Positions 1 through 15,467 of a stretch of 64,000 bases of DNA are shown here, one piece after another. A program made the translations under genes and the position numbers. Within the stretch, counting starts at the first letter, position 1; each line of letters begins with the position of its first letter. Source of the stretch: Aquimarina atlantica (GTDB lineage: Bacteria; Bacteroidota; Bacteroidia; Flavobacteriales; Flavobacteriaceae); assembly GCF_000626715.1 (NCBI RefSeq), contig NZ_AQRA01000004.1:434001-498000 (forward strand). Direction: 5' to 3'. The notes below the pieces were generated by a model that was given only the letters and a program-made list of their open reading frames with translations, did no database searches and was not told where the DNA came from.

Positions 1-272
1 TCTAATGTTTTTCCCGAAGCCAGGCTTAATGCTCCTGTTTTAGTGATTTCGAATAGATCATCACTGTTTGCAGTAATGCTATAGCTTAATGCATCTTCGT
101 TAACATCTGTAGCTGTTACCGTACCGAATATCTCAGTATCGATCGCAGTTTCTGAAGCACTAAAAGATTGTGCCTTGATTACCGGAGCCAAATTAATGGT
201 CTGATCATCATCTTTACTACATGATAGTGCCAAGATAGCTATCACTAGTAATAGAAATTTTGTTGTTTTCAT
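1..272 (-). CDS. Cadherin-repeat lipoprotein, partial (3' end outside window)
   Basis: Only the first 90 codons are in the window. The protein starts with a lipoprotein signal ending LALSC (Cys18), followed by an acidic KDDDQ stretch, which suggests lipidation and anchoring in an outer membrane leaflet. The rest is the start of a cadherin-like Ca-binding beta domain. It is closely similar to the N-terminus of the cadherin lipoprotein at 9788-10774, including the INLAPVIKAQSFS segment, so the two are duplicates. A LytTR-type promoter lies at 531-596, which would give an mRNA leader of about 250 nt. Role unknown; adhesion or surface signalling is an inference from the domain. Confidence 0.8.
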   Translation of the reverse strand, partial: MKTTKFLLLVIAILALSCSKDDDQTINLAPVIKAQSFSASETAIDTEIFGTVTATDVNEDALSYSITANSDDLFEITKTGALSLASGKTL

Positions 273-530
273 AGTACAGTTTCTCATTATGGGTTACTTT
301 ATTTTGACTTTCGTGTTTGATTTGTAATGGGGAGTATTAGAAAAGCAAAAGGATCTCCCCCTTAATTATCATTTTCTCAAGAGTCTATTCTTCTCTGGTG
401 TTTGTCTGGTATTAAAAACAGTGATTTAACTTCATTTTGGTATAGAAAAATGTATCATATACCATTGTAGATATTTCAATTAGCGTAATTTTTTGTATCA
501 TATTTTTGTTTTAGAATTAATAATTCTCAA

Positions 531-596
531 CAAGAATACAGACAACCGTGTAGAAGAGAGTAAAGGAGTTTGTGAAACGCTATTTGAGTTTGTGAA
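531..596 (-). promoter_or_regulatory. LytTR-type direct-repeat promoter, copy 1
   Basis: Read on the minus strand, there are two perfect TTCACAAACTC half-sites at 596-586 and 576-566, with a 9-bp spacer beginning AAAT. After exactly 27 bp comes TATTCTTG (538-531), one mismatch from the Bacteroidota -7 box TAnnTTTG. The same layout occurs at three other promoters in this island. The tandem spacing of about two helical turns is typical of LytTR-domain binding sites. Binding by the regulators at 8802-9545 or 11039-11770 is an inference. Confidence 0.65.
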
Positions 597-709
597 TGGA
601 AATAATCTATTATAAAATAAGGTAATCTATTGATAGTATGAAGTATACTCTTATATATAAGTGAAGTAGTAATTTACATTTTTTAGAAAGTCAATTCTTC
701 TTTGTTAAA

Positions 710-765
710 CTGAGCCTGTCGAAGTTTAATACTATTATTATTTAATTAATCTTCGATAGGCTCAG
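710..765. terminator. Long hairpin downstream of DUF6261-like gene
   Basis: Arms at 710-724 (CTGAGCCTGTCGAAG) and 751-765 (CTTCGATAGGCTCAG) pair over 15 bp with one G-U pair and a 26-nt loop. The hairpin lies 65 bp past the stop of the minus-strand DUF6261-like gene, so a terminator or mRNA-end role is plausible. The arm sequence resembles a dispersed intergenic palindrome I recall from other bacterial genomes. There is no strong U-tract. Confidence 0.45.
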
Positions 766-829
766 ACAGACATCTAGCCTTAAATTTATTTATAGACCTT
801 CTATACGATCATAATGATTAATCTCTAGC

Positions 830-1558
830 TCATTGTTTGATCTGTTTCTTCTGTAGTATTTCTTTTCGGTGGGTAATAATTTGCTGGTATCGTTCTGCCA
901 ATGTAGTTAATTCTCTTTGCAACACATCATATATATTGTTTTCATCGAGTTCTATATAAGCTTTTATTCTATTTATCAATTGGGTATACACAGTAATGGC
1001 TTCGGGCTTGATTGTGGTAAACGAAGTTTTGTTATGTTTACTCTCTTCTTCAATTCGGTTACTGTATAATTCTCTAAATTTCTGATTGGTCACCTTAAGA
1101 TGGTCTGCCCAATGTTGTAGTTCTACCTTCTGCAATGCTGTTTTTAAAGTATGCTCTGTTTCGAGATCACTAATAAGATTATGAATAGCTGCACTTTCTG
1201 ATTCATAATTCATACGGGCAATACTCCCACCATAGCTATCGATGCGGTCTAACAATAAATGTGCTGCAGTCTTTACTGTTGGGTTTTTATGATAGGTATT
1301 CATCAAAAAACCATATCGAAGGCCAGTTACGGCTTCATCTCTGTTACGGTCTAGTTCTTCTAATTCTTTGGTAAACTCCTTTTCTCGCTCATAGATTAAA
1401 GCGTCATCTAATCGAGCTACTATTTTCCTTAAAGGGTCAACCTTTGTCTGGATATGAAGTGCTACCGGATCATTTTTTTCGCAAATATCTACTGTATTGC
1501 GTAAAAACTCAATGAATTCTTCTTTATGAAGAACAATAAGGTTACTGGATGTTAACAT
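830..1558 (-). CDS. DUF6261-like helical protein
   Basis: This 242-aa protein has no signal peptide or membrane segment and is almost wholly charged alpha helix with coiled-coil stretches. Examples are EREKEFTKELEELDRNRDE near residues 57-75 and the Lys-rich C-terminus. The N-terminal half has a GLRYGF...HKNPTVKTAAHLLLDRIDSYGG segment. This pattern recalls DUF6261, a Bacteroidota-restricted family of unknown function; the assignment is from memory. It stands alone, with the minisatellite upstream of its start and a hairpin beyond its stop. No function can be assigned. Confidence 0.75.
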   Translation of the reverse strand: MLTSSNLIVLHKEEFIEFLRNTVDICEKNDPVALHIQTKVDPLRKIVARLDDALIYEREKEFTKELEELDRNRDEAVTGLRYGFLMNTYHKNPTVKTAAHLLLDRIDSYGGSIARMNYESESAAIHNLISDLETEHTLKTALQKVELQHWADHLKVTNQKFRELYSNRIEEESKHNKTSFTTIKPEAITVYTQLINRIKAYIELDENNIYDVLQRELTTLAERYQQIITHRKEILQKKQIKQ

Positions 1559-2239
1559 AATTTTGGTTTAGATTTTAAGATATTATAAGTAACAAAAATC
1601 TTTGCTAAATATTTCACAAAACAAACCACAAATAACTAATTAACAACACATTAACATTTACACACACTTCAGCAGATTCATGCATAGACCATAGCAATTT
1701 CCTGCACCCTGCAGCGAATCCATGTGTAAACCATAGCGATCTCCTGCGCCCTGCAGCGAATCAATGTGTAAACCATAGCGATCTCCTGCACCCTACGGCG
1801 AATCCATATGTAAACTATAGTGATCTCCTGCACCCTACAGCGAATCAATGTGTAAACCATAGTGATCTCCTACGCCCTGCAGCGAACCCATGTGTAAACC
1901 ATAGTGATCTCCTGCACCCTACGGCGAATCAATGTGTAAACCATAGTGATCTCCTGCGCCTTGCAGCGAACCCATGTGTAAACCATAGCGATCTCCTGCA
2001 CCCTACGGCGAATCCATGTGTAAACCATAGTGATCTCCTGCATGCTGTGTACTGATTTTAAGAAAATAACATAAAATCTCTTTTCAGCATTTTTATGGTC
2101 TATTCTGGTCTAACTTCTACATAAGGATTGTATTTTAGTATATAAAAAATCATTACCTATAGTTTCTACATTCAACACATATAAGTACTATGGTAATTAT
2201 AGAATGCTATTAATAATAATTTTGAACATATAAAATAAG
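1559..2239. other. Intergenic region dominated by a 42-bp minisatellite
   Basis: This 681-bp stretch lies between two divergently transcribed genes (DUF6261-like on minus, unknown on plus). Its centre, 1681-2042, is a tandem repeat. The flanks are AT-rich and presumably hold the two promoters. I see no RNA gene and no supported protein gene. Confidence 0.7.
1681..2042. repeat. Minisatellite, 42-bp unit, about 8.6 copies
   Basis: Units start at 1681, 1723, 1765, 1807, 1849, 1891, 1933 and 1975, and a 26-bp partial unit runs 2017-2042. Copies differ almost only by transitions (for example agcgat/agtgat and cgccct/caccct), except for a recurrent C/A change at position 41. Two variants tend to alternate (cgccctgcagcg versus caccctacggcg), suggesting an 84-bp higher-order unit. 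The unit is a multiple of three, and the plus-strand frame is open from 1636 to the stop at 2053-2055 with no ATG. The minus-strand frame is broken by TAG in unit 5. The DNA is locally more GC-rich than its surroundings. Confidence 0.9.
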
Positions 2240-2968
2240 ATGGATACTATAAGTAGTATTATTAAAAAGGCTCAGGACGATTTATTTCCCGAATTAGAGA
2301 AAAAAATTCGTTTGGAGTTACAAAAAAAAGATAAAAATTGGCTTATTGACCAGATTATTTACCTTACCTGTGAAAGACATAGTTTACATGAGCAGAAAAA
2401 CAGGCTTGAAGATATGAAGAAGCGTCTGGATCGAATACATAAGGTAGGTTATGATGATCGAGCCTTAATGAACTTTGTGGATAAGTATCGAAAAATTAGT
2501 AGAGAATATCTAGAAGAGTCTCGTTTCCTTATGCAACCACCGCACATGGGTTTAGCAACTATTGAACCTCATCAAAGATCAAAAAAAGGTGAGATCTTAC
2601 TCGAAGAAGCACGAGATATGCTCTATTTGACTTTATATGGTGATACAACTATTAATGTTAATTTGACACGAGGACAGGAAGAGGTTTTGACCATAATATT
2701 ACCTCTTAGTAAATCGGACTCGCTATTTTTTCTAAAAGCAGTTACAGAAGTCAATGCAGACGGAACCTGGAGTGATCCAGAAGGGGTATCAAATGATGAT
2801 CATACTAATAATGTCGGATTACAAGTAGAATTTAGTGATCATAAAAAGGGCAGTATTGGAATGGCCATATTTGTAGCATTAAACTTAATCAATCTTTTAC
2901 ATGTAAATGAACAAATTTTTTATGCCCGTATGGAAAAGGTAGAGCGAAGTTCATTGCAATCGCTGTAA
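2240..2968 (+). CDS. Hypothetical cytoplasmic protein
   Basis: I do not recognise this 242-aa protein. It lacks a signal peptide. Residues 1-95 are helical and charged, with probable coiled coil around KNRLEDMKKRLDRIH. Residues 120-242 look like a mixed alpha/beta domain ending in a hydrophobic helix (GSIGMAIFVALNLINLLHV). It sits between the minisatellite and the convergent TPR kinase gene, 30 bp from that gene's stop. The ATG at 2240 follows an A-rich leader, as is common in Bacteroidota. No neighbour suggests a role. Confidence 0.75.
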   Translation: MDTISSIIKKAQDDLFPELEKKIRLELQKKDKNWLIDQIIYLTCERHSLHEQKNRLEDMKKRLDRIHKVGYDDRALMNFVDKYRKISREYLEESRFLMQPPHMGLATIEPHQRSKKGEILLEEARDMLYLTLYGDTTINVNLTRGQEEVLTIILPLSKSDSLFFLKAVTEVNADGTWSDPEGVSNDDHTNNVGLQVEFSDHKKGSIGMAIFVALNLINLLHVNEQIFYARMEKVERSSLQSL

Positions 2969-2998
2969 AACAAGTATTTCTGATGCATCAAACTCAGT

Positions 2999-4852
2999 TT
3001 AATACTTTTTTTGAAAAGGCATTCTAATTTCTACTCGGGTACCGATAGCCAATTGATCATTATATAAATCAAAGATCTCATACCCTATATCTGTACCATA
3101 CTGATCTTTTAGGATTTCTAATCGCTGTTGTATCGCTTTTAATGCAAAGGATTCATGGTGATTGCCTTGTCGCTCCTGTATCTTTTTTGCTTCCTTTCTA
3201 CCGATACCATTATCGATGATCGTACATAACAAATGATCTGTAAATGTAAAATCTATGGTAAGTTGTTTTTTACCTGCTTTATGCAGCAAACCATGTAGCA
3301 ATGCATTTTCTATAAAGGGTTGTACTATTAAAGAGAGTACAGATAACCCCTCTGTATTTATGCTTTGTATAGAGTATGTAAAATCATCTTCGAATCTTAA
3401 TTTCTCTAGTTGAAGATAGACATCTAAAAACTCTAGTTCTTTTTCTATCGCTATAAAGTTTTTACTAGAATAGTTTAAGGTATTTCTAACCAATTGTGCA
3501 AACAAAACGATATAATCATAAGAAGAATCTGTATTTTGCTGAAGGATTAAATCCTGAATAGAATTGAGGGAGTTAAATATAAAATGGGGGTTCATTTGAG
3601 ATTTTAAAGCTTTTAATTCACTTTCTTTATATTGCTTTTCTATCTCTAGTCGTTTTTGAGTTTCTTGAAACTCTAAGGTGATTAATTCCATTTTTTTTCT
3701 GGCACGTAATCTCCCTATTAGGAACAATGCACTCATTAATATTAAAATTGCGATAATAATGGCTCCAATGAAGTAATTTTTATTTTGTCTCGATGTAGCC
3801 TCCGCAAGTTTGGTTCTGGCTTCTGCAGCATCCTTTTGGGCTGCTATTTTATCTGTTTCGTAAGCTACCTTTAGTTTTTCGGTAAGTGCTTTACGTTCAT
3901 TTGAATCTATAGAATCTTTTAACTTCTTGTATGCCGTATTAAATTCTGTAGCCTTTTCCTGATCCTGCAATATGCTATAAGCTATAAATAAATTTTGAAG
4001 GATATGCTTTTTAAAGTGTAAACTAGCTCCCGAATCTTCATAATTTTGTAATGCTTTTAAATATATAGGGACAGATTCTTCATGTTTTCCCTGAGAAGAT
4101 TTGATTTGTGCCATTTGCATATATGCACTACCTATACGCACGGTTTGCTTTGTGGTTATATAATATGCTAATGGCTCACTAATAAACTCTAACGCTTTCT
4201 CATATCTTTTTTGTATTTTATATAAATTACTTAAAGACATTTTCATTACCATCTCTCCGGGTTTAAACCCTACTTCGTGGCACATTTGAATACCTTTGGT
4301 ATAATACTGCTCGGTTAGATCTAACTTTCTGATTTTTAAATAGAGATTTCCAATATCAAAATATGTTCTTGCTCTCGAAGGAGAAGGAGGGTCATTCTCG
4401 GTTAATGCTAAATTTTCTAAAGCTAATGCTATACTTTTTTTATCATCTCCAGAATTGGCATATACAATTTGCAAACCACTGTTTGCTACTAGTTTTTGTT
4501 GTTTTGTACCAAAAGCATCAGCTTCTTTTTTAGCAATAATAGCTTGTTTCATCGCATCGTCCCATACTCCCTTAGCCCTATAATATCTGGCCATTTCATT
4601 TTGTATACTTACGCTATGATATTTGGCATCTATAGCTTTAGATATTGTAAGAGCTTCTTGAAGGTATGGTAGTACTTTCTCCATATCTCTATCTATATAG
4701 TAATAGGCTATTTTGATTAAAGAATTAACCCGTATTGTATCTTGGTTTACATTATTATTTAGAGCGGTGATAAGGCTGTCAATCGATTTTTCCTGAGAAA
4801 AAATATTGAACGAAATTAGGATTGCCAGAAGAAAGCTATTTTTTTTGAGCAT
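2999..4852 (-). CDS. LytS-type sensor histidine kinase with periplasmic TPR repeats
   Basis: Membrane sensor kinase, 617 aa: signal peptide (MLKKNSFLLAILISFNIFSQ), about six TPR-like repeats (residues 40-310), a coiled coil, one membrane helix (about 360-382), a second coiled coil, then a His_kinase domain with phospho-acceptor His423 in MNPHFIFNS and a HATPase domain (ENALLHG, DNGIGR). The start is placed at ATG 4852. An upstream TTG at 4876 is rejected because it lies inside the TATTCTTG -7 box. The last 200 residues are nearly identical to those of the three kinases upstream, so it probably feeds the same regulator (8802-9545). It has its own LytTR-type promoter at 4874-4939. Confidence 0.88.
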   Translation of the reverse strand: MLKKNSFLLAILISFNIFSQEKSIDSLITALNNNVNQDTIRVNSLIKIAYYYIDRDMEKVLPYLQEALTISKAIDAKYHSVSIQNEMARYYRAKGVWDDAMKQAIIAKKEADAFGTKQQKLVANSGLQIVYANSGDDKKSIALALENLALTENDPPSPSRARTYFDIGNLYLKIRKLDLTEQYYTKGIQMCHEVGFKPGEMVMKMSLSNLYKIQKRYEKALEFISEPLAYYITTKQTVRIGSAYMQMAQIKSSQGKHEESVPIYLKALQNYEDSGASLHFKKHILQNLFIAYSILQDQEKATEFNTAYKKLKDSIDSNERKALTEKLKVAYETDKIAAQKDAAEARTKLAEATSRQNKNYFIGAIIIAILILMSALFLIGRLRARKKMELITLEFQETQKRLEIEKQYKESELKALKSQMNPHFIFNSLNSIQDLILQQNTDSSYDYIVLFAQLVRNTLNYSSKNFIAIEKELEFLDVYLQLEKLRFEDDFTYSIQSINTEGLSVLSLIVQPFIENALLHGLLHKAGKKQLTIDFTFTDHLLCTIIDNGIGRKEAKKIQERQGNHHESFALKAIQQRLEILKDQYGTDIGYEIFDLYNDQLAIGTRVEIRMPFQKKY

Positions 4853-4873
4853 TGTTAAATAAATAATCTTCAA

Positions 4874-4939
4874 CAAGAATACTTACAACGCAAAAGAAGA
4901 ATACAAATGAGTTTGTGAAACTCAATTTGGATTTGTGAA
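4874..4939 (-). promoter_or_regulatory. LytTR-type direct-repeat promoter, copy 2
   Basis: On the minus strand the half-sites are TTCACAAATCC (4939-4929) and TTCACAAACTC (4919-4909), with a 9-bp spacer beginning AAAT. TATTCTTG (4881-4874) follows after exactly 27 bp. Both the spacing and the -7 octamer are identical to copy 1. It begins 6 bp beyond the stop of the upstream kinase gene and gives a leader of about 15-20 nt to ATG 4852, which decides that start codon. Confidence 0.65.
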
Positions 4940-4944
4940 CAGGA

Positions 4945-6201
4945 TTAATATTTCTTTTTGTAGGGCATTCTGATTTCAACTTTGGTACCTATGGCAAATT
5001 TATTATCATATAAATCTTGTATATGATATCCCACCACTGTACCATATTGCTCTTTTAAGATTTCTAAGCGTTGTTGTATCGCTTCGAGGGCAAAAGATTC
5101 ATGATGCCCTCCTTGTCGCTCCTGGATTTTCTTTGCTTCCTTTCTACCAATACCATTATCCGTAACCGTACATAATAAATGATCTGTAAATGTAAAATCT
5201 ATAACGAGTTCTTTTTTACCCGTTTTGTGTAGTAAACCATGGATCAGGGCATTTTCTATAAAAGGTTGTACGATTAGAGAAGGAACAGATAAACCCTCTG
5301 TATTGGTATGTTGGATAGTATATGTAAAATCATCTTCGAACCTTAATTTCTCTAATTGAAGATATATTTCTAAAAACTCTAATTCTTTATCAATAGCAAT
5401 AAAGTTTTTATTAGAGTAGTTTAAGGTATTTCTAACCAGTTGTGAGAACAATACCACATAATCATAAGAAGAATCTGTGTTTTGTTGCAGGATTAAATCC
5501 TGAATAGAATTAAGTGAATTAAATATGAAATGAGGATTCATTTGAGATTTTAAAGATTTCAATTGTAAAAACGCCAACTCATTCTTTTTACTTAGTTCTA
5601 ATTCTTTATATGCCGCTTCGAGGTCTTGTTTGTTCTTTTTTAATTCAATTTCCTTTTTCCTATTTAATGATTGCGAATAATTTAATATAACATAACTCGC
5701 AACAAAAATGGATAATATTAAAATAGGGTTCATTGTTTTCTCGGGATACAGACCTGTAGTTATTACAAAAGGGATGTAATATAATCCCCAACAAAGTACC
5801 ATTATTAATAATGTTATCCATTTATTATCAATTAATACTAGTGCTATCAAAGGGCATAAGAAGTAAAAATTCTCCATCAAAATAGAAGACTCAACAAAGT
5901 TTGCAAAAACAAATATGACAAAAATAAGCACCAAGATAAATAAGATACGTGCTAATAAAAGCTTTTTATGCTTTTGCAAAAAAACTATACTTACTATTGT
6001 AATAAAAGAAAAGAAACGCACCTTTAGCCCTTCTATTAAAGTTTCTGCAAAAAAATAATCAAACGCTGTAAAAAAAATAAGAAACACAAACCATGTTAAA
6101 CAAAAAGCATTTAACAATCGTATTCTTTTGTGCTCTATCTTATTATCTTGATAGATACCTGTATTTATAAGTTGTTTATATAGTTTTTTTATTTTAGTCA
6201 A
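4945..6201 (-). CDS. LytS-type membrane histidine kinase (six-helix sensor), operon copy 3
   Basis: This 418-aa kinase has six predicted membrane helices (about 31-50, 61-75, 83-101, 112-125, 129-147, 159-178), a coiled coil (180-215) and the His_kinase/HATPase output with His224 in MNPHFIFNS, the ENALIHG N-box and DNGIGR. The sensor has an ENFYFLCP motif after helix 3 and LYPEK after helix 5, which match positions in its paralogs. It is last in an operon behind regulator 8802-9545 and two kinases; the gap to the preceding gene is 24 bp. The start is TTG at 6201 with AGG eight bases upstream; no in-frame ATG fits, and paralogs align from this point. Confidence 0.88.
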   Translation of the reverse strand: MTKIKKLYKQLINTGIYQDNKIEHKRIRLLNAFCLTWFVFLIFFTAFDYFFAETLIEGLKVRFFSFITIVSIVFLQKHKKLLLARILFILVLIFVIFVFANFVESSILMENFYFLCPLIALVLIDNKWITLLIMVLCWGLYYIPFVITTGLYPEKTMNPILILSIFVASYVILNYSQSLNRKKEIELKKNKQDLEAAYKELELSKKNELAFLQLKSLKSQMNPHFIFNSLNSIQDLILQQNTDSSYDYVVLFSQLVRNTLNYSNKNFIAIDKELEFLEIYLQLEKLRFEDDFTYTIQHTNTEGLSVPSLIVQPFIENALIHGLLHKTGKKELVIDFTFTDHLLCTVTDNGIGRKEAKKIQERQGGHHESFALEAIQQRLEILKEQYGTVVGYHIQDLYDNKFAIGTKVEIRMPYKKKY

Positions 6202-6225
6202 TTCATACCTGATTATAAAGCCTTA

Positions 6226-7473
6226 TCAATATTTCTTTTGAAAAGGCATTCTGATTTCTACTTTGGTACCTGTAGCATACCCATTATCATATAAATCAAA
6301 CACTTGGTATCCTACCGCTGTACCATATTGCTCTTTTAAGATTTCTAATCGTTGTTGTATGGCTTCAAGAGCAAAAGATTCATGACGACCTCCTTGTCGA
6401 TCCTGGATTTTCTTTGCTTCTTTTCTACCAATACCATTATCGGTTACTTTACATAACAGATCATCTGTAAATGTAAAATCTATAGTAAGTCGCTTTTTAC
6501 CCGTTTTATGTAGTAAACCATGGATTAGGGCATTTTCTATAAAAGGTTGTACGATTAGAGAAGGAACCAATAAACCCTCTGTATTGGTGTGTTGGATTCT
6601 ATAAGTAAAGTCATCTTCGAACCTTAATTTCTCTAGTTGAAGATATATTTCTAAAAATTCTAGTTCTTTATCAATAGCAATAAAGTTCTTATTAGAGTAG
6701 TTTAAGGTATTTCTAACCAGTTGTGAGAACAATACTACATAATCGTATGATGAATCTGTATTTTGTTGAAGGATTAAATCCTGAATAGAATTAAGTGAAT
6801 TAAATATGAAATGAGGATTCATCTGTGACCTTAGCGATTTTAATTGTAGTAGGGCCAATTCTGTTTTTTTAGATTCTTTTAATTCTTTATAAGCTAACTC
6901 CAACTTTTTCTCATTACGAATATTAAGTTTTTTAAAATAATTAACTATTGCGTAAATACAATAAAACAAAATTATTATCACTACACCATTCATCCTGTTC
7001 GGGTGATCTTTAGGGTATATATCAAGATAATAGTAAGGAATAAAAAAGCAAACTATACTTACCAATGTAAATATTATCGGTAAAGTTTTTTTTTGATAAA
7101 TCGATAAGCTAATTCCCGGAATTAGAAGGAAGTAATACTCTGTGTAAATCCCAGGGTTAACCATTACGGTAGATAAATTTATAAAAATGAATAAATATAA
7201 AATCCACAACATTTTGGCAAACCCAAAAAAACCTTTCTTATTACATATCAATACAGAAATTAAATAAAACTGGGATATATAACTTATGATATGAGAACTT
7301 AGAGGCTTTTGAATAAAAATTAAATCTCCTATATAAAAAAATATACTGGTATGTAAAGCAATCAGCATATAAATATTTACCAGTCTTGTATGTTTATTTT
7401 GTATCGCACTAAATTCATCGTGGATACCAATAGCTATTATTTTTTTGTACCAGGCTGTTATTTTTTTTATCAT
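6226..7473 (-). CDS. LytS-type membrane histidine kinase (mosaic), operon copy 2
   Basis: This 415-aa kinase has six membrane helices (within residues 32-180), then a coiled coil and a kinase output with His221. Its output half is nearly identical to the kinases at 2999, 4945 and 7510. Its sensor half (residues 1-200) instead closely matches the kinase at 11772-13007, sharing TRLVNIY, NPGIYTEYYFLLIPGI and DHPNR. The similarity switches within the coiled coil, at about residues 200-217. This looks like domain recombination. It is the third gene of the operon led by regulator 8802-9545. The ATG start at 7473 is supported by alignment. Confidence 0.9.
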   Translation of the reverse strand: MIKKITAWYKKIIAIGIHDEFSAIQNKHTRLVNIYMLIALHTSIFFYIGDLIFIQKPLSSHIISYISQFYLISVLICNKKGFFGFAKMLWILYLFIFINLSTVMVNPGIYTEYYFLLIPGISLSIYQKKTLPIIFTLVSIVCFFIPYYYLDIYPKDHPNRMNGVVIIILFYCIYAIVNYFKKLNIRNEKKLELAYKELKESKKTELALLQLKSLRSQMNPHFIFNSLNSIQDLILQQNTDSSYDYVVLFSQLVRNTLNYSNKNFIAIDKELEFLEIYLQLEKLRFEDDFTYRIQHTNTEGLLVPSLIVQPFIENALIHGLLHKTGKKRLTIDFTFTDDLLCKVTDNGIGRKEAKKIQDRQGGRHESFALEAIQQRLEILKEQYGTAVGYQVFDLYDNGYATGTKVEIRMPFQKKY

Positions 7474-7509
7474 CCTTTATCCCATTATAAAATCAAATAT
7501 TCCTACTAA

Positions 7510-8796
7510 TCAGTATTTTTTCTGAAAAGGCATTCTGATCTCAACTTTCGTACCTATGGCAAGCTCATTATCATATAAATCAAACACCTCGTAACCTACA
7601 GCTGTACCATATTGATCTTTTAGGATTTCTAATCGTTGTTGTATGGCTTCTAGGGCAAAAGATTCATGACGACCTCCTTGTCGCTCCTGGATTTTCTTTG
7701 CTTCTTTTCTACCAATACCATTATCGGTAACTGTACATATCAGATTATCTGTAAATGTAAAATCTATAGTAAGTCGCTTTTTACCCGTTTTGTGTAGTAA
7801 ACCATGGATTAAGGCATTTTCTATAAAAGGTTGTATGATTAAGGAGGGAACAGACAAACCTTCTGTATTGGTATGTTGGATAGTGTATATAAAATCATCT
7901 TCGAACCTTAATTTTTCTAGCTGAAGATATATTTCTAAAAATTCTAATTCTTTATCAATAGCAATGAAGTCTTTATTAGAATAGTTTAAGGTATTTCTTA
8001 CCAATTGTGCAAACAAAACAATATAATCATAAGAAGCATCCGTATTTTGCTGAAGGATTAAATCCTGAATAGAATTAAGTGAATTAAAAATAAAATGAGG
8101 ATTCATTTGAGATTTAAGGGACTTCAGTTGTAAAAATGCCAATTCATTCTTTTTGCTTATTTCTAATTCTGAATACGCTTTTTCTAATAGTAACTTTTGA
8201 GTTTCTATAATACTATTCTGTTGCTGTAGTTTATCATTATTTTCTTTTAAAGAGAGTTCATTTTTTATGTTTAGATTCCTAAAAAGATTCACAATAAAGA
8301 ATACTCCTATAAACATAAATACAACATTAATATACCCAAAGTATTTTTCGGGATAAACAGGATGTAAATAATTGGGTAGATAAAATAAAATAATAGAAAG
8401 TGCAAGTGCGATATAATGAATATACTTTTTATCAAAAAACAGTAATGAAAACAAAGGAATAACCATATACTGATACTCTGCATAAAACCCTCTAAATGTA
8501 AAGTTTGCATGCAAAAATAGAATTAGCATTACTACAGATATAAATGCTAATCTAGATATAAAAAGATGTTCTAATTTTTGCAGGTATAGTATTCCAGAAA
8601 ATATAACAATTTCTACAACCAAAATCATTACTCTGGATGTTGTTAGTTGTTGTATTGCAAAATCAAAACATAAAAAGAACAGCGAAGCAAATAAAGAGAT
8701 TAAAGAACATAAATTAAGTACTTTAGATCGTTTTATCTCTAATGGAGTACTATTTTCTGTTATTCCCAGATGAATTAATTGTAGTAGTCTATTCAT
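7510..8796 (-). CDS. LytS-type membrane histidine kinase (six-helix sensor), operon copy 1
   Basis: This 428-aa kinase has six predicted membrane helices (about 28-175), with the paralogous motifs YAEYQYMVIP and VYPEKY. It has a longer coiled coil than its relatives (residues 180-225), then a His_kinase/HATPase output with His234 (MNPHFIFNS), ENALIHG and DNGIGR. It lies 5 bp downstream of the LytTR regulator gene, so the two are almost certainly co-transcribed and form the cognate pair. The sensor is poorly conserved relative to its neighbours while the output is nearly identical, so the signal sensed probably differs. The ligand is unknown. Confidence 0.9.
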   Translation of the reverse strand: MNRLLQLIHLGITENSTPLEIKRSKVLNLCSLISLFASLFFLCFDFAIQQLTTSRVMILVVEIVIFSGILYLQKLEHLFISRLAFISVVMLILFLHANFTFRGFYAEYQYMVIPLFSLLFFDKKYIHYIALALSIILFYLPNYLHPVYPEKYFGYINVVFMFIGVFFIVNLFRNLNIKNELSLKENNDKLQQQNSIIETQKLLLEKAYSELEISKKNELAFLQLKSLKSQMNPHFIFNSLNSIQDLILQQNTDASYDYIVLFAQLVRNTLNYSNKDFIAIDKELEFLEIYLQLEKLRFEDDFIYTIQHTNTEGLSVPSLIIQPFIENALIHGLLHKTGKKRLTIDFTFTDNLICTVTDNGIGRKEAKKIQERQGGRHESFALEAIQQRLEILKDQYGTAVGYEVFDLYDNELAIGTKVEIRMPFQKKY

Positions 8797-8801
8797 AAAG
8801 T

Positions 8802-9545
8802 CTATCGTATGGTATTTTCAAAAGAACTAAAACGGGTTCTGGAGATTTTGGCAGTTATATTTTGTGCCAATGTTATTGTCAAACTAGATTTATTAATGAC
8901 TTCAATATACTTTAAATTTATCATCCAGGTTCTGTGAGAGCGAAAAAAAGAAATATCCTCGGGTAGTAGATTTTCAAAATATTTTAAGTTTTTACTCGTC
9001 GTTAGCGGTTTATTTTCTGTTGTATAAATTTTGCTATACGACCCATCCGCTTCTATCGCTATAATGGTGTTAATCGCAATAATACGTCTATTACCTAATT
9101 CGGGAAGTATAATTTGTTTAAACTCTTTTTCTTTTATAGTGTTTAGTAAAACCTGGTAGTCTTCTATCTTCTTTTGCTTTTCTATTTTGTTTTGCAGTTT
9201 TTCTACAGCCTCTATTAATCGTCTTCTATCTATAGGTTTTACCAAATAATCTATAGCCGATAACTCAAAAGCTTTTATAGCATACTCATCAAAAGCGGTC
9301 ACAAAAATGATATCAAAATTCATTTCGTCAAAGAAATTTGCAATCTCATACCCCGCATAGTTAGGCATTTGTACATCTAAAAAAACGACATCGGGTTGTA
9401 ATTCTTTGATCTCTTTTACAGCATCTTCGAGGCAGGAACACTTGGCAAGAATATCTATATGTAGATCACAACGTTTTATTAAATTTGATAAAACATTTCT
9501 CGCCCTTTGCTCATCATCTACGATTATTGCTTTAATTACATTCAT
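8802..9545 (-). CDS. LytTR-family response regulator heading the multi-kinase operon
   Basis: This 247-aa regulator has an N-terminal receiver domain (acidic pair in IIVDDE, phospho-acceptor Asp in VVFLDVQMP, Thr in FVTAFDEYA, Lys in LVKPID). A linker coiled coil (about 125-150) precedes a LytTR DNA-binding domain (about 150-247) with the family signature FFRSHRTWMINL. It is first in the operon with three kinases and follows the LytTR-type promoter at 9550-9615. Autoregulation through that site, and control of the three similar promoters, is inferred from the shared motif. Confidence 0.93.
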   Translation of the reverse strand: MNVIKAIIVDDEQRARNVLSNLIKRCDLHIDILAKCSCLEDAVKEIKELQPDVVFLDVQMPNYAGYEIANFFDEMNFDIIFVTAFDEYAIKAFELSAIDYLVKPIDRRRLIEAVEKLQNKIEKQKKIEDYQVLLNTIKEKEFKQIILPELGNRRIIAINTIIAIEADGSYSKIYTTENKPLTTSKNLKYFENLLPEDISFFRSHRTWMINLKYIEVINKSSLTITLAQNITAKISRTRFSSFENTIR

Positions 9546-9549
9546 GTAA

Positions 9550-9615
9550 CAAAAGTAACTAGTTTAAAATTAGTGATCATGAAACAGTTTGCGAACGATA
9601 GTTTGAGTTTATGAA
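9550..9615 (-). promoter_or_regulatory. LytTR-type direct-repeat promoter, copy 3
   Basis: On the minus strand the half-sites are TTCATAAACTC (9615-9605) and TTCGCAAACTG (9595-9585), with a 9-bp spacer beginning AAAC. After exactly 27 bp comes TACTTTTG (9557-9550), a full match to TAnnTTTG. The half-sites are the least perfect of the four copies, as might suit an autoregulated promoter. The -7 box ends only 4 bp before the start codon of the regulator, so the mRNA may be leaderless or nearly so. Confidence 0.6.
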
Positions 9616-9681
9616 TAGCAAGTATAACTATCATATAACCACTCTTTTTCTATTTCATTAAAAAACAGACCATAATATTAA

Positions 9682-9730
9682 GCCCTCACAAAGTTTATCC
9701 TAAATTTGATTCAGAATTGCTTGTGAGGGC
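9682..9730. terminator. Perfect 10-bp stem with 29-nt loop
   Basis: GCCCTCACAA at 9682-9691 is perfectly inverted as TTGTGAGGGC at 9721-9730. It lies 58 bp past the stop of the minus-strand cadherin lipoprotein gene and upstream of the regulator operon promoter. A terminator is the likeliest role, but no clear U-tract follows. The arm resembles the CCTCACAGG core of the palindrome at 26227-26260. Confidence 0.4.
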
Positions 9731-9787
9731 ATGTAAAACTTTACAGCGGTCTAAATACCAATGGTAAATAGGATACTAAAAATATAT

Positions 9788-10774
9788 TTAAAACACTGCT
9801 ATAACTTCTGGTACATCGGTAACCATAAGTGATATATTTTTGAATACTGTAGAGTTTCCATCGGTTACACGAACCTGAATGGTATGACTGGTATCTGTCT
9901 CATAATCTAAATTTTTTCCTGGTGCCAAACTTAAATCACCATCATTACTAATCTCAAAAAGACCACTTGGATTACCCGACAAACCAAAACTAAGATTATT
10001 ACCTTCTGGATCAGTTGCACTTACTGTTCCTATCAATACTGTATCTGCAATATCTTCTGCTGCTATAAATCCAGGTTGATTAACAAATACCGGGGCTTCA
10101 TTTACATCGGTTATTTCTATTTGTAGTACAGCCGTAGTGGTTAAGCTCCCGTCTGATACTTCTATGTTTAAAGTATAAGAGGTTTGAGTTTCATAATCAA
10201 GATTCTCGCTAGCCTTTAAGCTTATCTCACCAGAGTTCGATATCTCAAAAATACTCGTATTCTGTGGAGTGGTACTTGTAATCGAAAATGTAAGGTCATC
10301 ATTATTTTGATCGGTCGCAACAATAGTTCCTAACACTCCAGAAGCATCTTCTGCAAATGAAAAATCCTGATTGGCTACTTCTGGAGCAACATTTTCATCA
10401 ACATCAGTTACATTAATGGTTATTTTTGCATTGGTTTTAGTGTTGCCATCAGTTACCTCTACTGTAATTTCGTGAGATTTTTTGGTTTCAAAATCCAGGT
10501 TTTTCCCTGTGATAAGACTTAATGCTCCTGCCTTGGTGATTTCGAACAATTCATCATTGTTTACAGTAATACTATAGCTTAATTCATTTTTCTCTGTATC
10601 TGTTGCTGTTACTGTACCAATTACTTCTGTGTCGGCAATTGATTCTAATACACTAAAAGATTGTGCTTTAATTACAGGGGGTAAATTAATCAATTGATCA
10701 TCATCTGTATTACAACTAGAAATTAATAGTCCAATTACTAATAAACTCTTTAAAAAAAATAATTTTGTTTTCAT
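9788..10774 (-). CDS. Lipoprotein with three cadherin-like repeats
   Basis: This 328-aa protein has a lipoprotein signal ending ISSC (Cys21), an acidic NTDDDQ tether, then three cadherin-like domains of about 97 aa each (roughly 35-130, 131-226, 227-322). Each contains an LDYET/LDFET strand, a V(T/S)DG turn and a Ca-binding DVxE/DVNEAP junction. The protein ends right after the third repeat with no T9SS tail, so it should be a lipid-anchored outer membrane or surface protein. Its N-terminus duplicates the partial gene at 1-272. It lies between the two kinase/regulator operons, but no LytTR-type site is visible upstream. Adhesion is an inference. Confidence 0.85.
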   Translation of the reverse strand: MKTKLFFLKSLLVIGLLISSCNTDDDQLINLPPVIKAQSFSVLESIADTEVIGTVTATDTEKNELSYSITVNNDELFEITKAGALSLITGKNLDFETKKSHEITVEVTDGNTKTNAKITINVTDVDENVAPEVANQDFSFAEDASGVLGTIVATDQNNDDLTFSITSTTPQNTSIFEISNSGEISLKASENLDYETQTSYTLNIEVSDGSLTTTAVLQIEITDVNEAPVFVNQPGFIAAEDIADTVLIGTVSATDPEGNNLSFGLSGNPSGLFEISNDGDLSLAPGKNLDYETDTSHTIQVRVTDGNSTVFKNISLMVTDVPEVIAVF

Positions 10775-11038
10775 GAAATGGGTTTTTAAAATTCATCACA
10801 AAACTGAATATTTTGGTAGTCTGAACTAAGAATTTACTTCCGAATGGATCATTTTAATTTCCTAATGAAAAATAGTTGCTACTTTTTCTTCTAAAAAAGA
10901 GAGATCCTTTCTTAGATGCATTATAATATTTTTTCTGCCTGATTTTGAGAAATGTTAGATAGAGAATGACAATTTTCATGATTTGGTTGTAGACAAATGA
11001 AAAGCAATCGATTTGTAATATGTGGTAGATCTTACGTT

Positions 11039-11770
11039 TTAAGTATAAAAAATGGCTTCAAAATTATCTTTATAACCTTTACTTACGGGTATTACAAGTT
11101 GTGTGTGTAATACAACTTCTTTATTTTTTTTAGAATACGTTTCTATTTTATTACTATTAACGATCCAGGAACGGTGTAATCTTATAAAATCTGTGTCTTT
11201 ACATAATAGTTCTTCATAATAGCTTAATTTTTTGGCGACCATATACTTTTTATCATCTACAGTATGAAGAATTGTATACATTCTATCTGCTTCTATACAC
11301 AGTATAGTATCTATATCTAAAATAGCATAATCTGATTTATAAGGGATTGCTATTTTTTTTAAGCCTTTCCTGTTTTCTAATAAAGTTTCGATGCGGTTAT
11401 AGCCAAACGAGCTATTATGTATTCGTATTACCTTTTTTATGGCTTTCTTTAAAAGTGAAACATCAATGGGTTTTAGCAAATAATCTATTGCCGCTATTTG
11501 AAATGCTTTTATGGCATAATGATCGTAAGCAGTAACAAAAATAATATGGAAATTCACATCTTCAAATGCATTCAAAAGTTGAAACCCGTTTTTTTGAGGC
11601 ATTTCGATATCTAAAAATACCAGTTCGGGCTTGTGCTTATTTATCAATTTTACAGCTTCATCTACATGCGTTGCTTCGGCTACTACATTAATTTCTGAGC
11701 AAAAAGAATCTAGTAAATAGCTCAGATTTTCCCTTGCATTTATTTCATCATCAACAATAATAGCATTCAT
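11039..11770 (-). CDS. LytTR-family response regulator of the second kinase pair
   Basis: This 243-aa regulator has a receiver domain (IIVDDE, phospho-acceptor in LVFLDIEMP, FVTAYDHYA, LLKPID) and a C-terminal LytTR domain with the signature FIRLHRSWIVNSNKI. ATG 11770 is chosen: it lies one base after the stop of the kinase gene and gives the usual MNAIIVDDE start. A GTG at 11779 would only add three residues. It is co-transcribed with its kinase. It could recognise the same direct-repeat promoters as the regulator at 8802-9545, but this cannot be decided from sequence alone. Confidence 0.92.
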   Translation of the reverse strand: MNAIIVDDEINARENLSYLLDSFCSEINVVAEATHVDEAVKLINKHKPELVFLDIEMPQKNGFQLLNAFEDVNFHIIFVTAYDHYAIKAFQIAAIDYLLKPIDVSLLKKAIKKVIRIHNSSFGYNRIETLLENRKGLKKIAIPYKSDYAILDIDTILCIEADRMYTILHTVDDKKYMVAKKLSYYEELLCKDTDFIRLHRSWIVNSNKIETYSKKNKEVVLHTQLVIPVSKGYKDNFEAIFYT

Positions 11771-11771
11771 C

Positions 11772-13007
11772 TTAGTCACTTATTAAGGTATAAGGTATTT
11801 TTAAAATTACTTTAGTACCTATTTTCACATTTTCATAGGTAAAACCAATATCTGTCTTGTAGTAATCTTTTAATAATAACAATCTATCTTCAATTGCCTT
11901 GGTAGAAAAAGATTGATTTGCTTCATTTACTTTATTTATGGTTTTAGATGCTTTTAAACCTACACCATTGTCGGTAATAATACACTTAAAAACCTCATCT
12001 TGCTGAAATTCTAATTCTAATATTTTCTTACCTTCCTGTTTATGTAACAACCCATGTTTTATGGCATTCTCTACAAAAGGTTGAATAATCATAGACGGAA
12101 TTTTTATATCTCCTATAGTATCTGCTCCTTGAATACTATATTCTAAAGAATCCCTAAACCTGAGGCGTTCTAATTCTAAGTACTTTTTTAAAAGAGATAA
12201 TTCTTCTTCAAAATACACAAAACTCTTTTCGCTCATATTAAGGTTACCTCGTATTAAAGTGGCAAATTGAGTTAGATAATCATATGCTTCTTGTTTATCA
12301 CCTTTAAGCACTAGGTTTTGTATAGAATTCATGGCATTAAACATAAAATGAGGATTCATCTGCGCTTTTAAAGATTTTAGCTGCAAATGTGCTACCTCAC
12401 TTTTTTTTGTCTCCTCTAGCTGTTTATATGCCAGTGCTAATTTTTCTTCGTTAGCAATATTATGTTTTTTAAAATAATTTACTATCGCATAGATACTGTA
12501 AAACAAACAAGTAACAACGACAACTTGTATTCTATTAGGGTGATCTATTGGATAGATATCAAAAAAATAATAAGGGATAAAAAAACAAATAATGCTTAAC
12601 AATGTGCATATAATCGGAATGGTATTTTTTTGATAAATAGATAAACAAATTCCCGGAATCAAAAGAAAATAATACTCTGTATAGATACCGGGATTAATCT
12701 TTAATACCGATAAATTAATAAAGACAAATAAATATGCAATCCACATGATTTTTGCATAATCAAAAAGATGTTTTTTATTACATATTAATATGCTTATTAA
12801 GGCAATATAAGAAACGTATGCTGTAAAATGGTCTGATATAGGTTTGTGAACAAAAATTAAATCTCCTACATAAAAAATGATTGACGTATGTAAACAAATT
12901 AAAACATAAATATTTACAAGCCTTGTTCGTTTGTTTTGTAAATCAGAGAATGTATCGGCAGTACCAATCGCAATTATTTTTCTATATAGCGCTATAATTT
13001 CTTTCAT
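11772..13007 (-). CDS. LytS-type membrane histidine kinase of the second pair
   Basis: This 411-aa kinase has six membrane helices (residues 31-180), a coiled coil (180-212), and an output domain with His220 in MNPHFMFNA, ENAIKHG and DNGVGL. The sensor half closely matches the kinase at 6226-7473, but the output half is only family-level similar to that group. This argues that its partner is its own regulator, 11039-11770. ATG 13007 (MKEIIALYRKIIAIG) is chosen because it aligns with the paralog's start. An ATG at 13121 would add 38 residues without a counterpart. Confidence 0.88.
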   Translation of the reverse strand: MKEIIALYRKIIAIGTADTFSDLQNKRTRLVNIYVLICLHTSIIFYVGDLIFVHKPISDHFTAYVSYIALISILICNKKHLFDYAKIMWIAYLFVFINLSVLKINPGIYTEYYFLLIPGICLSIYQKNTIPIICTLLSIICFFIPYYFFDIYPIDHPNRIQVVVVTCLFYSIYAIVNYFKKHNIANEEKLALAYKQLEETKKSEVAHLQLKSLKAQMNPHFMFNAMNSIQNLVLKGDKQEAYDYLTQFATLIRGNLNMSEKSFVYFEEELSLLKKYLELERLRFRDSLEYSIQGADTIGDIKIPSMIIQPFVENAIKHGLLHKQEGKKILELEFQQDEVFKCIITDNGVGLKASKTINKVNEANQSFSTKAIEDRLLLLKDYYKTDIGFTYENVKIGTKVILKIPYTLISD

Positions 13008-13158
13008 CCATTTTTTTATACCATCAATTATAAAAATAATTTTTCGATATAAATAAAATTGTTTCCGAATAACCGTTTTATATTTCCAGATTGCACAACC
13101 TGGTAGAGTTAACTTTATCATAAAAACGCTATATAACTAATTGATAGGATCGTGGTAA

Positions 13159-14424
13159 CTAATTCACATACTTACACTCTAAAACATTCTGTCCTCTAAC
13201 AATACCTTCTGTAAAAACCTTTTGATAGCCGTTACCATTATATTGTTGTGCAAATGTCACATACTGAAAACTGCATTTACCGTCCTTACGTTTCATAATA
13301 ATAACGCCCGATATTCGTCTACCAAGCTGTACACCTGTTAGTGTATTCCTGTAAATACTCCAATCGTTACCTGTAAAATAAGCTTTGATGATTGTTTCTT
13401 CCCAACGATATTGACTTGCCCAGGACTTTGCTGCCAGTGTAGCCTGTTTTTCTAATGCCGAGTTGCTAAATCCTTTTGCAGGTAAACGTCTGTTCTTTAT
13501 AGCTTCGGCTTCCTTCGCAGCATATGTCTTTTCTACATATTCTTTTGCCTTCAATGACCAATCTGCCAGTTTAGTATCTATTTTATCCTGAGCTTCTTTG
13601 CTTACCAGTAAATTTCGTATTACTTTTTGATCTTTATGGAAATAGTTGAACTTTTCATAAGTTCCCCATGTAGATTTTCCCAAATCATTTCCTGAACTAT
13701 ATTTTGCCCAAATAATCGATAGCGGACTTTCTACAAACATATACTCTCGTCTATTGCCTCCAACATCATAAACATCGACTCCTAAAACCTTACTTAGTTC
13801 TATCATAAAACTATAATCTTCGCTATGACCATTAGATAATTTTAAGAGTAGTTCTTTGCCTTTTTCAACATCTATATTCACCGAATTAAATGACTCTCCA
13901 TTGTGCAATTCTTTTGCAGCTGGATAATAAAGGTTACTATCGCTATCAACAGCTTGTGCGCCAACCCCACCTGTCATAATCTGTTTTGAAAAGTCTATTG
14001 CCCAATCTTCTACTTTCTTTTTATTCATACCAGCGACCTTAGCTTTATCTGCACTAAAGAAATTGGCATATAAAAAAGTCTCCCAAATACCTTCTCCTAT
14101 AGCTACTGCCGGTGTTTTTGGAGCTACAGATATATAGCTATTTTCATCATAAGGGATCACATAGATACCCGAAGTACCATAAATAGTTTTCCCTGATGCT
14201 TTACTGGCATCAGGATTATAGGTATATACTGCTGGCATACATTGTTTACAAGATGCCATTGCTAATAACTTTACACCATTGTTTTCTCCAATTTGTAAAA
14301 TTTGTTGTTTTTTCCCATCTCTTGAGGGTTCTAATAAATGAACCATTTGATCTTGCGCATAGAATTGATTAACAAAAGTGAAACTTAATGCTATTAGTAT
14401 TTGTAAATAGTTTTTCATTTTCAT
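13159..14424 (-). CDS. Secreted protein of unknown function
   Basis: This 421-aa protein has an N-terminal signal peptide (cleavage likely after QFYAQ, about residue 24) and no T9SS tail or membrane helix, so it is probably periplasmic. I recognise no family. A CKQC motif lies near residues 59-62 (MASCKQCMPAVYTYNP) and another Cys pair near the C-terminus. The middle third is Lys/Glu/Ala-rich and helical. It lies between the LRR gene (31 bp upstream) and the kinase/regulator pair (151 bp downstream) in the same direction, so it may supply or bind the signal for that system. That role is an inference from position only. Confidence 0.8.
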   Translation of the reverse strand: MKMKNYLQILIALSFTFVNQFYAQDQMVHLLEPSRDGKKQQILQIGENNGVKLLAMASCKQCMPAVYTYNPDASKASGKTIYGTSGIYVIPYDENSYISVAPKTPAVAIGEGIWETFLYANFFSADKAKVAGMNKKKVEDWAIDFSKQIMTGGVGAQAVDSDSNLYYPAAKELHNGESFNSVNIDVEKGKELLLKLSNGHSEDYSFMIELSKVLGVDVYDVGGNRREYMFVESPLSIIWAKYSSGNDLGKSTWGTYEKFNYFHKDQKVIRNLLVSKEAQDKIDTKLADWSLKAKEYVEKTYAAKEAEAIKNRRLPAKGFSNSALEKQATLAAKSWASQYRWEETIIKAYFTGNDWSIYRNTLTGVQLGRRISGVIIMKRKDGKCSFQYVTFAQQYNGNGYQKVFTEGIVRGQNVLECKYVN

Positions 14425-14455
14425 GATATACAGTTTAAATATGCGATGTAGTATC

Positions 14456-15373
14456 TTATTCTTTTATCACCTTTTTTCTTATTCTTTTACTTTTTGTCTC
14501 TATCACAAGCCAATATATTCCTCTCTTCATTTCTGAAATATCTAATTCATTAGTATTCTGTTTCTCTACTACATTTTCTCCAGTGAATGTATATAAAGTG
14601 AGTTTCTCTATTTTTTCTTCAGATCGAATAGTAACAAAGTCATTTGCCGGATTTGGATATACAATGATGTCATTACCTATCTTCTCTATAGATTCTGGCA
14701 TACCAACCACAGAAAAACCTATATCTACCTGACTATCTGTAGCATCTATACATATATCACTATAACTAGCAGATGCATCTTTTCGCCAGCGCCAATTTGT
14801 AGGAGGAGTAAACCCTCGATCTATATTAATACATATTAGTTTAGGGTTATTTTCTGCAAACAAAGTGAAATTAGGGTGATGGTTATTTCCATTTGCTATA
14901 TCCAATGTTTTAAGGTTTGGATTGTCATAACAATAAACAGATTGTAAAGATGGATACCCACTTATATCTAAATCGACTAACTCATTATCTGAACAGGTGA
15001 GTACAATTAGATTAGGATTGTTACCTAAATTTATTGTACTAATTTTATTTCCGTCTACTTGTACAGTTATTAATTTCGTATTATTACTTAGATCAAGTTT
15101 GGTTAATAAACCACGTGCAACAACGAGTTGTCTTATATTTATAAAAAACTCTATCCCTGTTAAATCATGTATGAATGGAGTTTGTCCAACAGATAAAAGG
15201 CCGCTATAATTTTGTGCTTCTGAAACATCTATTTCTCCGTCATTATTCAAATCTATTGAAGGAGAATGATGTATCAAATCATTTTTAAAATTAGAGTCAG
15301 GAAAATTAATAATTTGGCTGTAACCACTAATAGCCATAAAAAATAAACCTAGTGTAAGTAATTTTTCTTTCAT
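14456..15373 (-). CDS. Leucine-rich-repeat protein with T9SS sorting domain
   Basis: This 305-aa protein has a signal peptide (cut after SGYSQ, about residue 19), then an EF-hand-like calcium loop (DLNNDGEIDVSEA, about 41-53). Degenerate leucine-rich repeats follow at about 70-180 (LTKLDLSNNTKLITV, LVDLDISGYPSLQSV). A Por-type T9SS tail (about 235-305, VYPNPANDFVTI ... GIYWLVIETKSKRIRKKVIKE) ends it. It should be exported by type IX secretion to the surface or medium. It heads a probable operon with the unknown secreted protein and the second kinase pair, and has a LytTR-type promoter at 15403-15467. Confidence 0.87.
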   Translation of the reverse strand: MKEKLLTLGLFFMAISGYSQIINFPDSNFKNDLIHHSPSIDLNNDGEIDVSEAQNYSGLLSVGQTPFIHDLTGIEFFINIRQLVVARGLLTKLDLSNNTKLITVQVDGNKISTINLGNNPNLIVLTCSDNELVDLDISGYPSLQSVYCYDNPNLKTLDIANGNNHHPNFTLFAENNPKLICINIDRGFTPPTNWRWRKDASASYSDICIDATDSQVDIGFSVVGMPESIEKIGNDIIVYPNPANDFVTIRSEEKIEKLTLYTFTGENVVEKQNTNELDISEMKRGIYWLVIETKSKRIRKKVIKE

Positions 15374-15402
15374 TTTTACTGTATCTTAAATATATTATTT
15401 AC

Positions 15403-15467
15403 TAAAAGTAATAGTTAAGATTTCAGAACAAGGAAAGGATTTGTGAATCGTAATTTGAGTTTGTGAA
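15403..15467 (-). promoter_or_regulatory. LytTR-type direct-repeat promoter, copy 4
   Basis: On the minus strand the half-sites are TTCACAAACTC (15467-15457) and TTCACAAATCC (15447-15437), with a 9-bp spacer beginning AAAT. A TACTTTTA box (15410-15403) follows after 26 bp. The leader to ATG 15373 is about 25-30 nt. This links the LRR/secreted protein/second kinase operon to the same regulon as copies 1-3. Confidence 0.62.

Follow-up and report, generated by a model that had tools for sequence, protein, structure and literature searches.

Does a single regulator command the surface proteins, the sensors and itself in a 64,000-nucleotide stretch of Aquimarina atlantica (contig NZ_AQRA01000004.1, positions 434,001 to 498,000; hereafter the window), where four promoters carry the same tandem repeat? 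As judged from sequence, the shared block is very probably a switch by which the LytTR response regulator RR1 controls itself, its sensors and a set of surface proteins, because relatives in other genera keep the block beside the RR1 gene. We consider it likely that the four sites are RR1 operators and that RR1 activates its own gene, the TPR kinase gene and the surface-protein operons. That the block works like a LytTR operator is strongly supported, and its identity as a LytTR operator is putative.

Four tandem sites and their promoters

The shared 31-bp block has the form TTCACAAACTC-N9-TTCACAAACTC with a period of 20 bp and is read on the minus strand at all four sites: in each of the four pairs, two 11-bp half-sites begin 20 bp apart, and the 9-bp spacers open with AAAT, AAAT, AAAC and AAAT (operators 1-4). 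Reading all four sites confirmed the original prediction of tandem pairs with AAA(T/C) spacers at 531-596, 4874-4939, 9550-9615 and 15403-15467, followed by TAnnTTTG-like boxes at 27, 27, 27 and 26 bp. Its description of the operator as invariant was too strong, since the sites show 0, 2, 3 and 2 mismatches to the consensus pair and the RR1 box is the only perfect TAnnTTTG. With up to three mismatches, the pair pattern finds four matches in the window and none in 100 shuffles. In the whole 5.69-Mb genome (39 contigs) it finds the same four and nothing else, the reversed-pattern control giving 0; random occurrence over the genome, which had been named as a check, is thus not what is seen. A looser pattern adds three weak matches in the whole genome, against four for the control.

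LytTR operators are described as two repeats of 9-11 nt with 11-13 nt between them (PMC4847170), and the period found here agrees with this form, 9-bp cores leaving an 11-bp spacer and 11-bp half-sites a 9-bp spacer. Compared by eye with one general consensus, [TA][AC][CA]GTTN[AG][TG], the complementary strand seems to agree at about 8 of 9 positions. The family as a whole is said to have no common consensus (PMC4847170).

A TAnnTTTG box with at most one mismatch lies at the expected place behind all four window sites, marking predicted sigma-A promoters. In a first set of 42 sites, many from close kin, 40 have such a box, at 25 (1), 26 (11) or 27 bp (28). Among 25 non-redundant sites, 21 have it at 25-27 bp, 15 of them exactly at 27, and the remaining four have a two-mismatch box at 27 bp; downstream sequence shuffled so as to preserve base composition only gives a mean of 1.2 boxes at 25-27 bp and a maximum of 5. 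These 25 sites were hand-picked for their position before genes, the RR1 site of genome G061 being added though it scored below 14, and eight sites scoring at least 14 were left out (L048:12860, L100:4005, L099:9166, L064:2867, L102:4587, L106:4860, L105:8998 and L105:15580; L100:4005 is the place of L062:13717, L099:9166 and L064:2867 overlap chosen sites, and L102:4587 and L106:4860 are intragenic). Counting the eight, 22 of 33 sites have the box at 25-27 bp, instead of 21 of 25.

In Flavobacterium johnsoniae the box occupies -12 to -5 and transcription starts 4-5 nt further on (PMC6847099). On this numbering, the operators would span about -70 to -40 of the predicted starts, with their centre at about -55. 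This position bears on the direction of control. Were RR1 to bind the sites as a repressor, keeping the promoters off until a signal removes it, the evidence for binding would be the same and only position would distinguish the two modes; yet the sites stand ahead of the core promoter with a near-fixed gap to the box, which an activator contacting polymerase needs and a repressor does not, and AgrA, an activator, has its promoter-proximal repeats centred near -60 (PMC4227749). We therefore regard repression as unlikely.

In the case of RR1 itself (9545-9557), 4 nt separate the -7 box from the ATG. A distance of 4-5 nt from box to likely start codon recurs in the Aquimarina sequences, in G011, in G061 (with GTG), in Lutibacter and Lacinutrix and in the metagenome-assembled genome L061, and the RR1 message is probably leaderless because so little separates the two, in relatives as well. 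In F. psychrophilum, leaderless messages make up 5.5% of the mRNAs with mapped starts (PMC9723704).

Table 1. Genes, operators and -7 boxes in the window; mismatches are to the consensus pair and box distances are from half-site 2.
Feature	Position	Strand	Evidence or remark
CN1, cadherin-NHL lipoprotein gene, 5' part	1..287	minus	NHL 1.3e-42, Cadherin 7.8e-20
-7 box of operator 1	531..538	minus	TATTCTTG, 27 bp
Operator 1 (putative)	566..596 (half-sites 586-596/566-576)	minus	0 mismatches; before cadherin-NHL lipoprotein operon
TPRHK, TPR histidine kinase	2999..4852	minus	His_kinase 1.5e-23, TPR_12 5.7e-15
-7 box of operator 2	4874..4881	minus	TATTCTTG, 27 bp
Operator 2 (putative)	4909..4939 (half-sites 4929-4939/4909-4919)	minus	2 mismatches; before TPR kinase gene
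HKc, membrane histidine kinase	4945..6201	minus	PF06580; RR1 operon
HKb, kinase, HK4-like sensor on RR1-type transmitter	6226..7473	minus	sensor/transmitter comparison, trees
HKa, membrane histidine kinase	7510..8796	minus	PF06580; RR1 operon
RR1, LytTR response regulator	8802..9545	minus	Response_reg 7.6e-22, LytTR 1.4e-16
-7 box of operator 3	9550..9557	minus	TACTTTTG, 27 bp; predicted start is the A of the RR1 ATG (9545)
Operator 3 (putative)	9585..9615 (half-sites 9605-9615/9585-9595)	minus	3 mismatches; before RR1
RR2, second LytTR regulator	11039..11779	minus	2/66 genus genomes; the site does not depend on it
HK4, kinase probably paired with RR2	11772..13121	minus	transmitter 47-49% identical to the others
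U421, likely secreted, without Pfam match	13159..14424	minus	relatives adjoin other sites
LRR protein, type IX secretion tail	14456..15373	minus	Por_Secre_tail 2e-13; LRR_4 5.4e-06, slightly below cut-off
-7 box of operator 4	15403..15410	minus	TACTTTTA, 26 bp
Operator 4 (putative)	15437..15467 (half-sites 15457-15467/15437-15447)	minus	2 mismatches; before LRR/U421 operon

Conservation of the sites

The half-sites stand out in aligned promoters. The 31-bp block is identical in 7 of 9 cadherin-class promoters, and mean column identity in the half-sites is 95-100% for the cadherin and LRR/U421 classes, each with 9 sequences, against 63-71% in the 40 bp upstream; for the RR1 class the values are 89-94% and 59%. 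The TPR class, four close sequences, carries little information because its upstream part is coding; operator 2 is kept before the TPR kinase in G034, G063, G064 and G017. The cadherin and TPR-kinase promoters resemble each other beyond the operator and may be duplicates, and the cadherin leader is about 240 nt long with a small open reading frame (ORF), which would suit a block that is no operator but a copied piece of promoter, an element of the transcript or the trace of a mobile element. We hold this to be highly improbable, for apart from operator and box the RR1- and LRR-type promoters have little in common, the upstream flanks diverge while the half-sites stay, copies in other genera precede different genes at equal spacing, and the block, being upstream of the predicted start, would lie outside the transcript.

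The sites and their spacing recur in other members of the family. In G011, one contig carries both the RR1 operon and a cadherin-NHL operon, each with a site, at a distance of 3.67 Mb (1.68 Mb in the other direction if circular). In Lutibacter sp. GLR166 (RR1 61% identical), sites precede RR1 and a cadherin/LRR gene as well as a U351-like/U421-like pair on a different contig, and Lacinutrix jangbogonensis (64%) has five, before RR1 and four cluster genes, three of which match the window LRR protein by BLAST and one of which is U351-like. In the Flavobacteriaceae metagenome-assembled genome L061 (66%), RR1 and a U351-like gene are each preceded by a site; G086 has sites ahead of genes of the U351-like, cadherin and cadherin-NHL types, and G144 and G061 have one more each near RR1. 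Overall, a recognisable pair stands at the usual place before RR1 in 14 of 20 relatives of at least 50% identity. The regulon originally proposed, comprising the regulator/kinase operon, the TPR kinase, the cadherin lipoprotein operon and the LRR/secreted operon, is supported by this conservation.

A blind scan of 397 family genomes with the strict pattern gave matches in three: G000 twice, G167 once (intragenic) and G341 twice. G341 belongs to another genus. At L114 1301-1531, one of its sites lies directly before a 61-codon ORF with 53% identity to RR1 across 53 residues; the box TATATTTG follows the pair after 25 bp. Apart from this short ORF, no RR1 closer than 40% was found in the G341 genome (90% complete), so that its RR1 copy looks shortened or decayed and the site appears to outlast its regulator; behind the second G341 site there is no ORF of at least 90 codons on its strand within 1.5 kb. 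At the level of the order, regulator relatives were found in 5 of 395 genomes, the window's own included, with a profile that included RR2. Two of these (L107 and L108) were set aside as RR2-like with a coding end upstream, and a third (L109) has no pair upstream by eye.

RR1 or RR2 as the binding protein

Within the genus, RR1 orthologues occur in 11 of 66 Aquimarina genomes (56-100% identity; the G016 copy spans residues 1-160 only), and the pair pattern in 15, against 7 of 66, one match each, for the reversed control. The pattern is present in 10 of the 11 genomes with RR1 versus 5 of the 55 without (Fisher p 1.4e-7, uncorrected for relatedness), and in the remaining one, G061, a weaker pair with 7 mismatches stands where it would be expected, followed after 27 bp by a perfect box. 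The five RR1-free genomes have one match each, and these look like chance because the control rate is near. RR1-like regulators of 34-42% identity (E <= 1e-40), found in eleven further genomes and including RR2 of the window genome, were counted as paralogues.

RR2 belongs to the LytTR regulators as well, and its gene is part of the operon that follows operator 4, so that it might regulate the sites, alone or with RR1, and the two had been put forward as equal candidates. This parity was not borne out. RR2 is found in 2 of 66 genus genomes (E <= 1e-60), the sites in at least 10, and other genera have the site together with RR1 (RR2 was not searched there; L061 has a 40% RR2-like gene beside RR1). 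We give a role of RR2 at the sites very little weight. Since the site tracks RR1 across genera and RR2 is so rare, RR1 is the likely, predicted binder of all four operators; of the earlier interpretation, then, the regulon stands and the equal standing of the two regulators falls. In addition, U421 leads to the RR1 operator within about 15 bp in G034, G063, G064, G023 and G016, with no HK4-RR2-CAD between, and because of this direct adjacency the three genes are read as an insertion in the lineage that unites the window and G017, or else as a loss elsewhere.

RR1 has the features of a LytTR response regulator. Its Response_reg and LytTR domains are both above Pfam cut-offs, and its DNA-contact motif FFRSHRT, with R201 and H203 invariant in 12 of 12 rows (RR2 included), corresponds to the FhRhHRS-like motif of LytTR domains (PMC4227749). 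The predicted structure (mean predicted local distance difference test, pLDDT, 86.7) has full-length ComE as its best match (4cbv, E 3.7e-14), at a template modelling (TM) score of 0.38 and thus reflecting the domains and not the whole pose; the LytTR domain 3d6w was matched too, and a sequence-profile search of the PDB gave receiver-type matches only, among the matches listed (60 of 106). As a separate observation, the G016 cluster (L044, 12053-12638) stops within RR1 and continues with unrelated genes.

The sites, their uniqueness, their conservation and spacing and their association with RR1 are observed; from these we infer binding, activation, kinase pairing, start points and the surface location of the products. 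Two RR1 molecules would occupy the 11-bp half-sites, which lie two helical turns apart between about -70 and -40, and from there assist the Bacteroidetes sigma-A RNA polymerase at promoters whose -7 box follows after 26-27 bp. RR1 would thereby turn on its own gene, apparently through a leaderless message, as well as the TPR kinase and the operons for surface or secreted proteins of the cadherin-NHL, LRR and U421 types, with HKa, HKb, HKc and TPRHK as its likely inputs.

Several observations weigh against this model. Activation, as against repression, is proposed from the position of the operator, and the stretch from half-site 2 to the box is also fairly conserved (79-84% in the cadherin, LRR/U421 and RR1 classes). 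Six of the 20 RR1 relatives (G086, G144, two G091 copies, L065, and L064 with a pair at -169) have no recognisable pair at the usual place, so autoregulation by RR1 would not be universal. The Aquimarina genomes are close kin and their counts are not independent. The strict family scan missed the RR1-bearing G086, G091 and G144 and two of the window's own four sites, and the looser pattern gave 46 matches against 21 for the control in ten RR1-bearing genomes, so that lone matches outside clusters are unreliable; sites in other genera were for this reason used only within clusters, or with a box and a related gene.

Histidine kinases of the cluster

All five kinases (HKa, HKb, HKc, TPRHK and HK4) are of the LytS/YehU type, with the PF06580 His_kinase domain, the H-box NPHFxFN and the G-box DNGxG. 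The transmitters of HKa, HKb and HKc are 90.5-91% identical and their sensors 30-34%; the TPRHK transmitter is 81-83% identical to these three. The HK4 transmitter is 47-49% identical to the others (46.8% to HKb), and its sensor is 69.6% identical to that of HKb. In the transmitter tree, two HK4 rows split from the other 26 (100/100), and in the sensor tree HK4 and HKb group together (100/99); many inner forks of the trees are unresolved. Because the HK4 and HKb sensors group while the HK4 transmitters separate, HKb is read as a sensor-swap chimera, with an HK4-like sensor on an RR1-type transmitter. The four kinases with one transmitter type and different sensors probably feed RR1, and the partner of HK4 is probably RR2; HKb and HK4 seem to show one type of sensor connected in nature to two regulators.

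A more far-reaching arrangement can be proposed tentatively, at somewhat less than even chances. The cluster would be a plug-in signalling hub, with one autoregulated LytTR regulator (on a leaderless message) served by four kinases with transmitters of the same clade, sensors exchanged among them and with the RR2 system, and a layout rigid enough to admit any surface-protein operon. In that case, swapping cassettes could rewire both the surface coat and its sensors.

Comparison with known systems

RR1 resembles AgrA (Staphylococcus aureus), ComE (Streptococcus) and YpdB (Escherichia coli) in its receiver and LytTR domain, and its sites resemble theirs in form, a pair of direct repeats spaced by about two turns immediately ahead of the promoter (PMC4847170, PMC4227749). 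Unlike these systems, the window has another half-site sequence, a 9-bp spacer with a conserved AAA start, a Bacteroidetes -7 box in place of -35/-10, a conserved cadherin/NHL/LRR regulon and an apparently leaderless RR1 message. A GTT core is typical of several LytTR sites; in the window operators it lies, in contrast to the AgrA, ComE and YpdB systems, on the strand opposite to transcription. The AlgR core of Pseudomonas aeruginosa, CCGTTTGTC (algD-RB3), shares GTTTGT with the half-site complement GAGTTTGTGAA, but the AlgR sites described form no regular 20-bp tandem pairs (PMC4064291). In the case of the Reg_prop/Y_Y_Y sensor kinases of Bacteroidetes, a kinase of the same type, with Reg_prop, Y_Y_Y and His_kinase domains, adjoins RR1 in G011 and Lutibacter, whereas in the kinases of the window and of close Aquimarina clusters a related transmitter is joined to membrane or TPR sensors.

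Most documented LytTR operators come from Firmicutes and Proteobacteria. Titles and abstracts of the open-licence papers listed gave no description of the motif, or of a LytTR operator or regulon in Bacteroidetes, and a search for the letters TTCACAAAC gave none on the subject by title, among the matches listed. The locus offers a precisely defined putative operator that is also kept in other genera and stands at a near-constant distance from a promoter of the unusual Bacteroidetes kind. Its likely regulator, targets and kinases come with it, and activation of this phylum's sigma-A promoter by a named factor can thus be put to a direct test.

Genes behind the operators

The CN1 operon starts at window position 287 and continues past the left edge, with two paralogous genes further left. 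The CSKDDD after the CN1 lipoprotein cysteine resembles the surface-export signal of flavobacterial lipoproteins. The CN1 leader with its small ORF occupies 288-530. As to a conserved peptide there, all 9 aligned cadherin leaders have an ORF of 25-40 codons beginning at a similar position, with variable sequence and length. Between the TPR kinase and operator 1 lies a DUF6261 gene (830-1558), whose relatives have the same place in G023 and G032. For TPRHK we propose the ATG at 4852 as start; the ORF list has a TTG at 4876 instead.

Operator 3 precedes RR1 and the three membrane kinases, and operator 4 the LRR protein and U421, followed in the window by HK4 and RR2. The predicted structure of U421 has a mean pLDDT of 52.2. 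For the CAD gene (9788-10774) no operator of its own was found: 10760-11060 showed no 20-bp-spaced direct repeats, and no direct repeats were detected in 9540-9800, at settings that also missed the diverged operator 3 pair there. After the CAD gene, a perfect 10-nt inverted repeat, GCCCTCACAA/TTGTGAGGGC, with 29 nt between its arms (9682-9730), is possibly a terminator. Further along, 17407-22491 encodes a 1694-residue protein with Peptidase_M9 (collagenase), PKD, GEVED and type IX secretion-tail domains.

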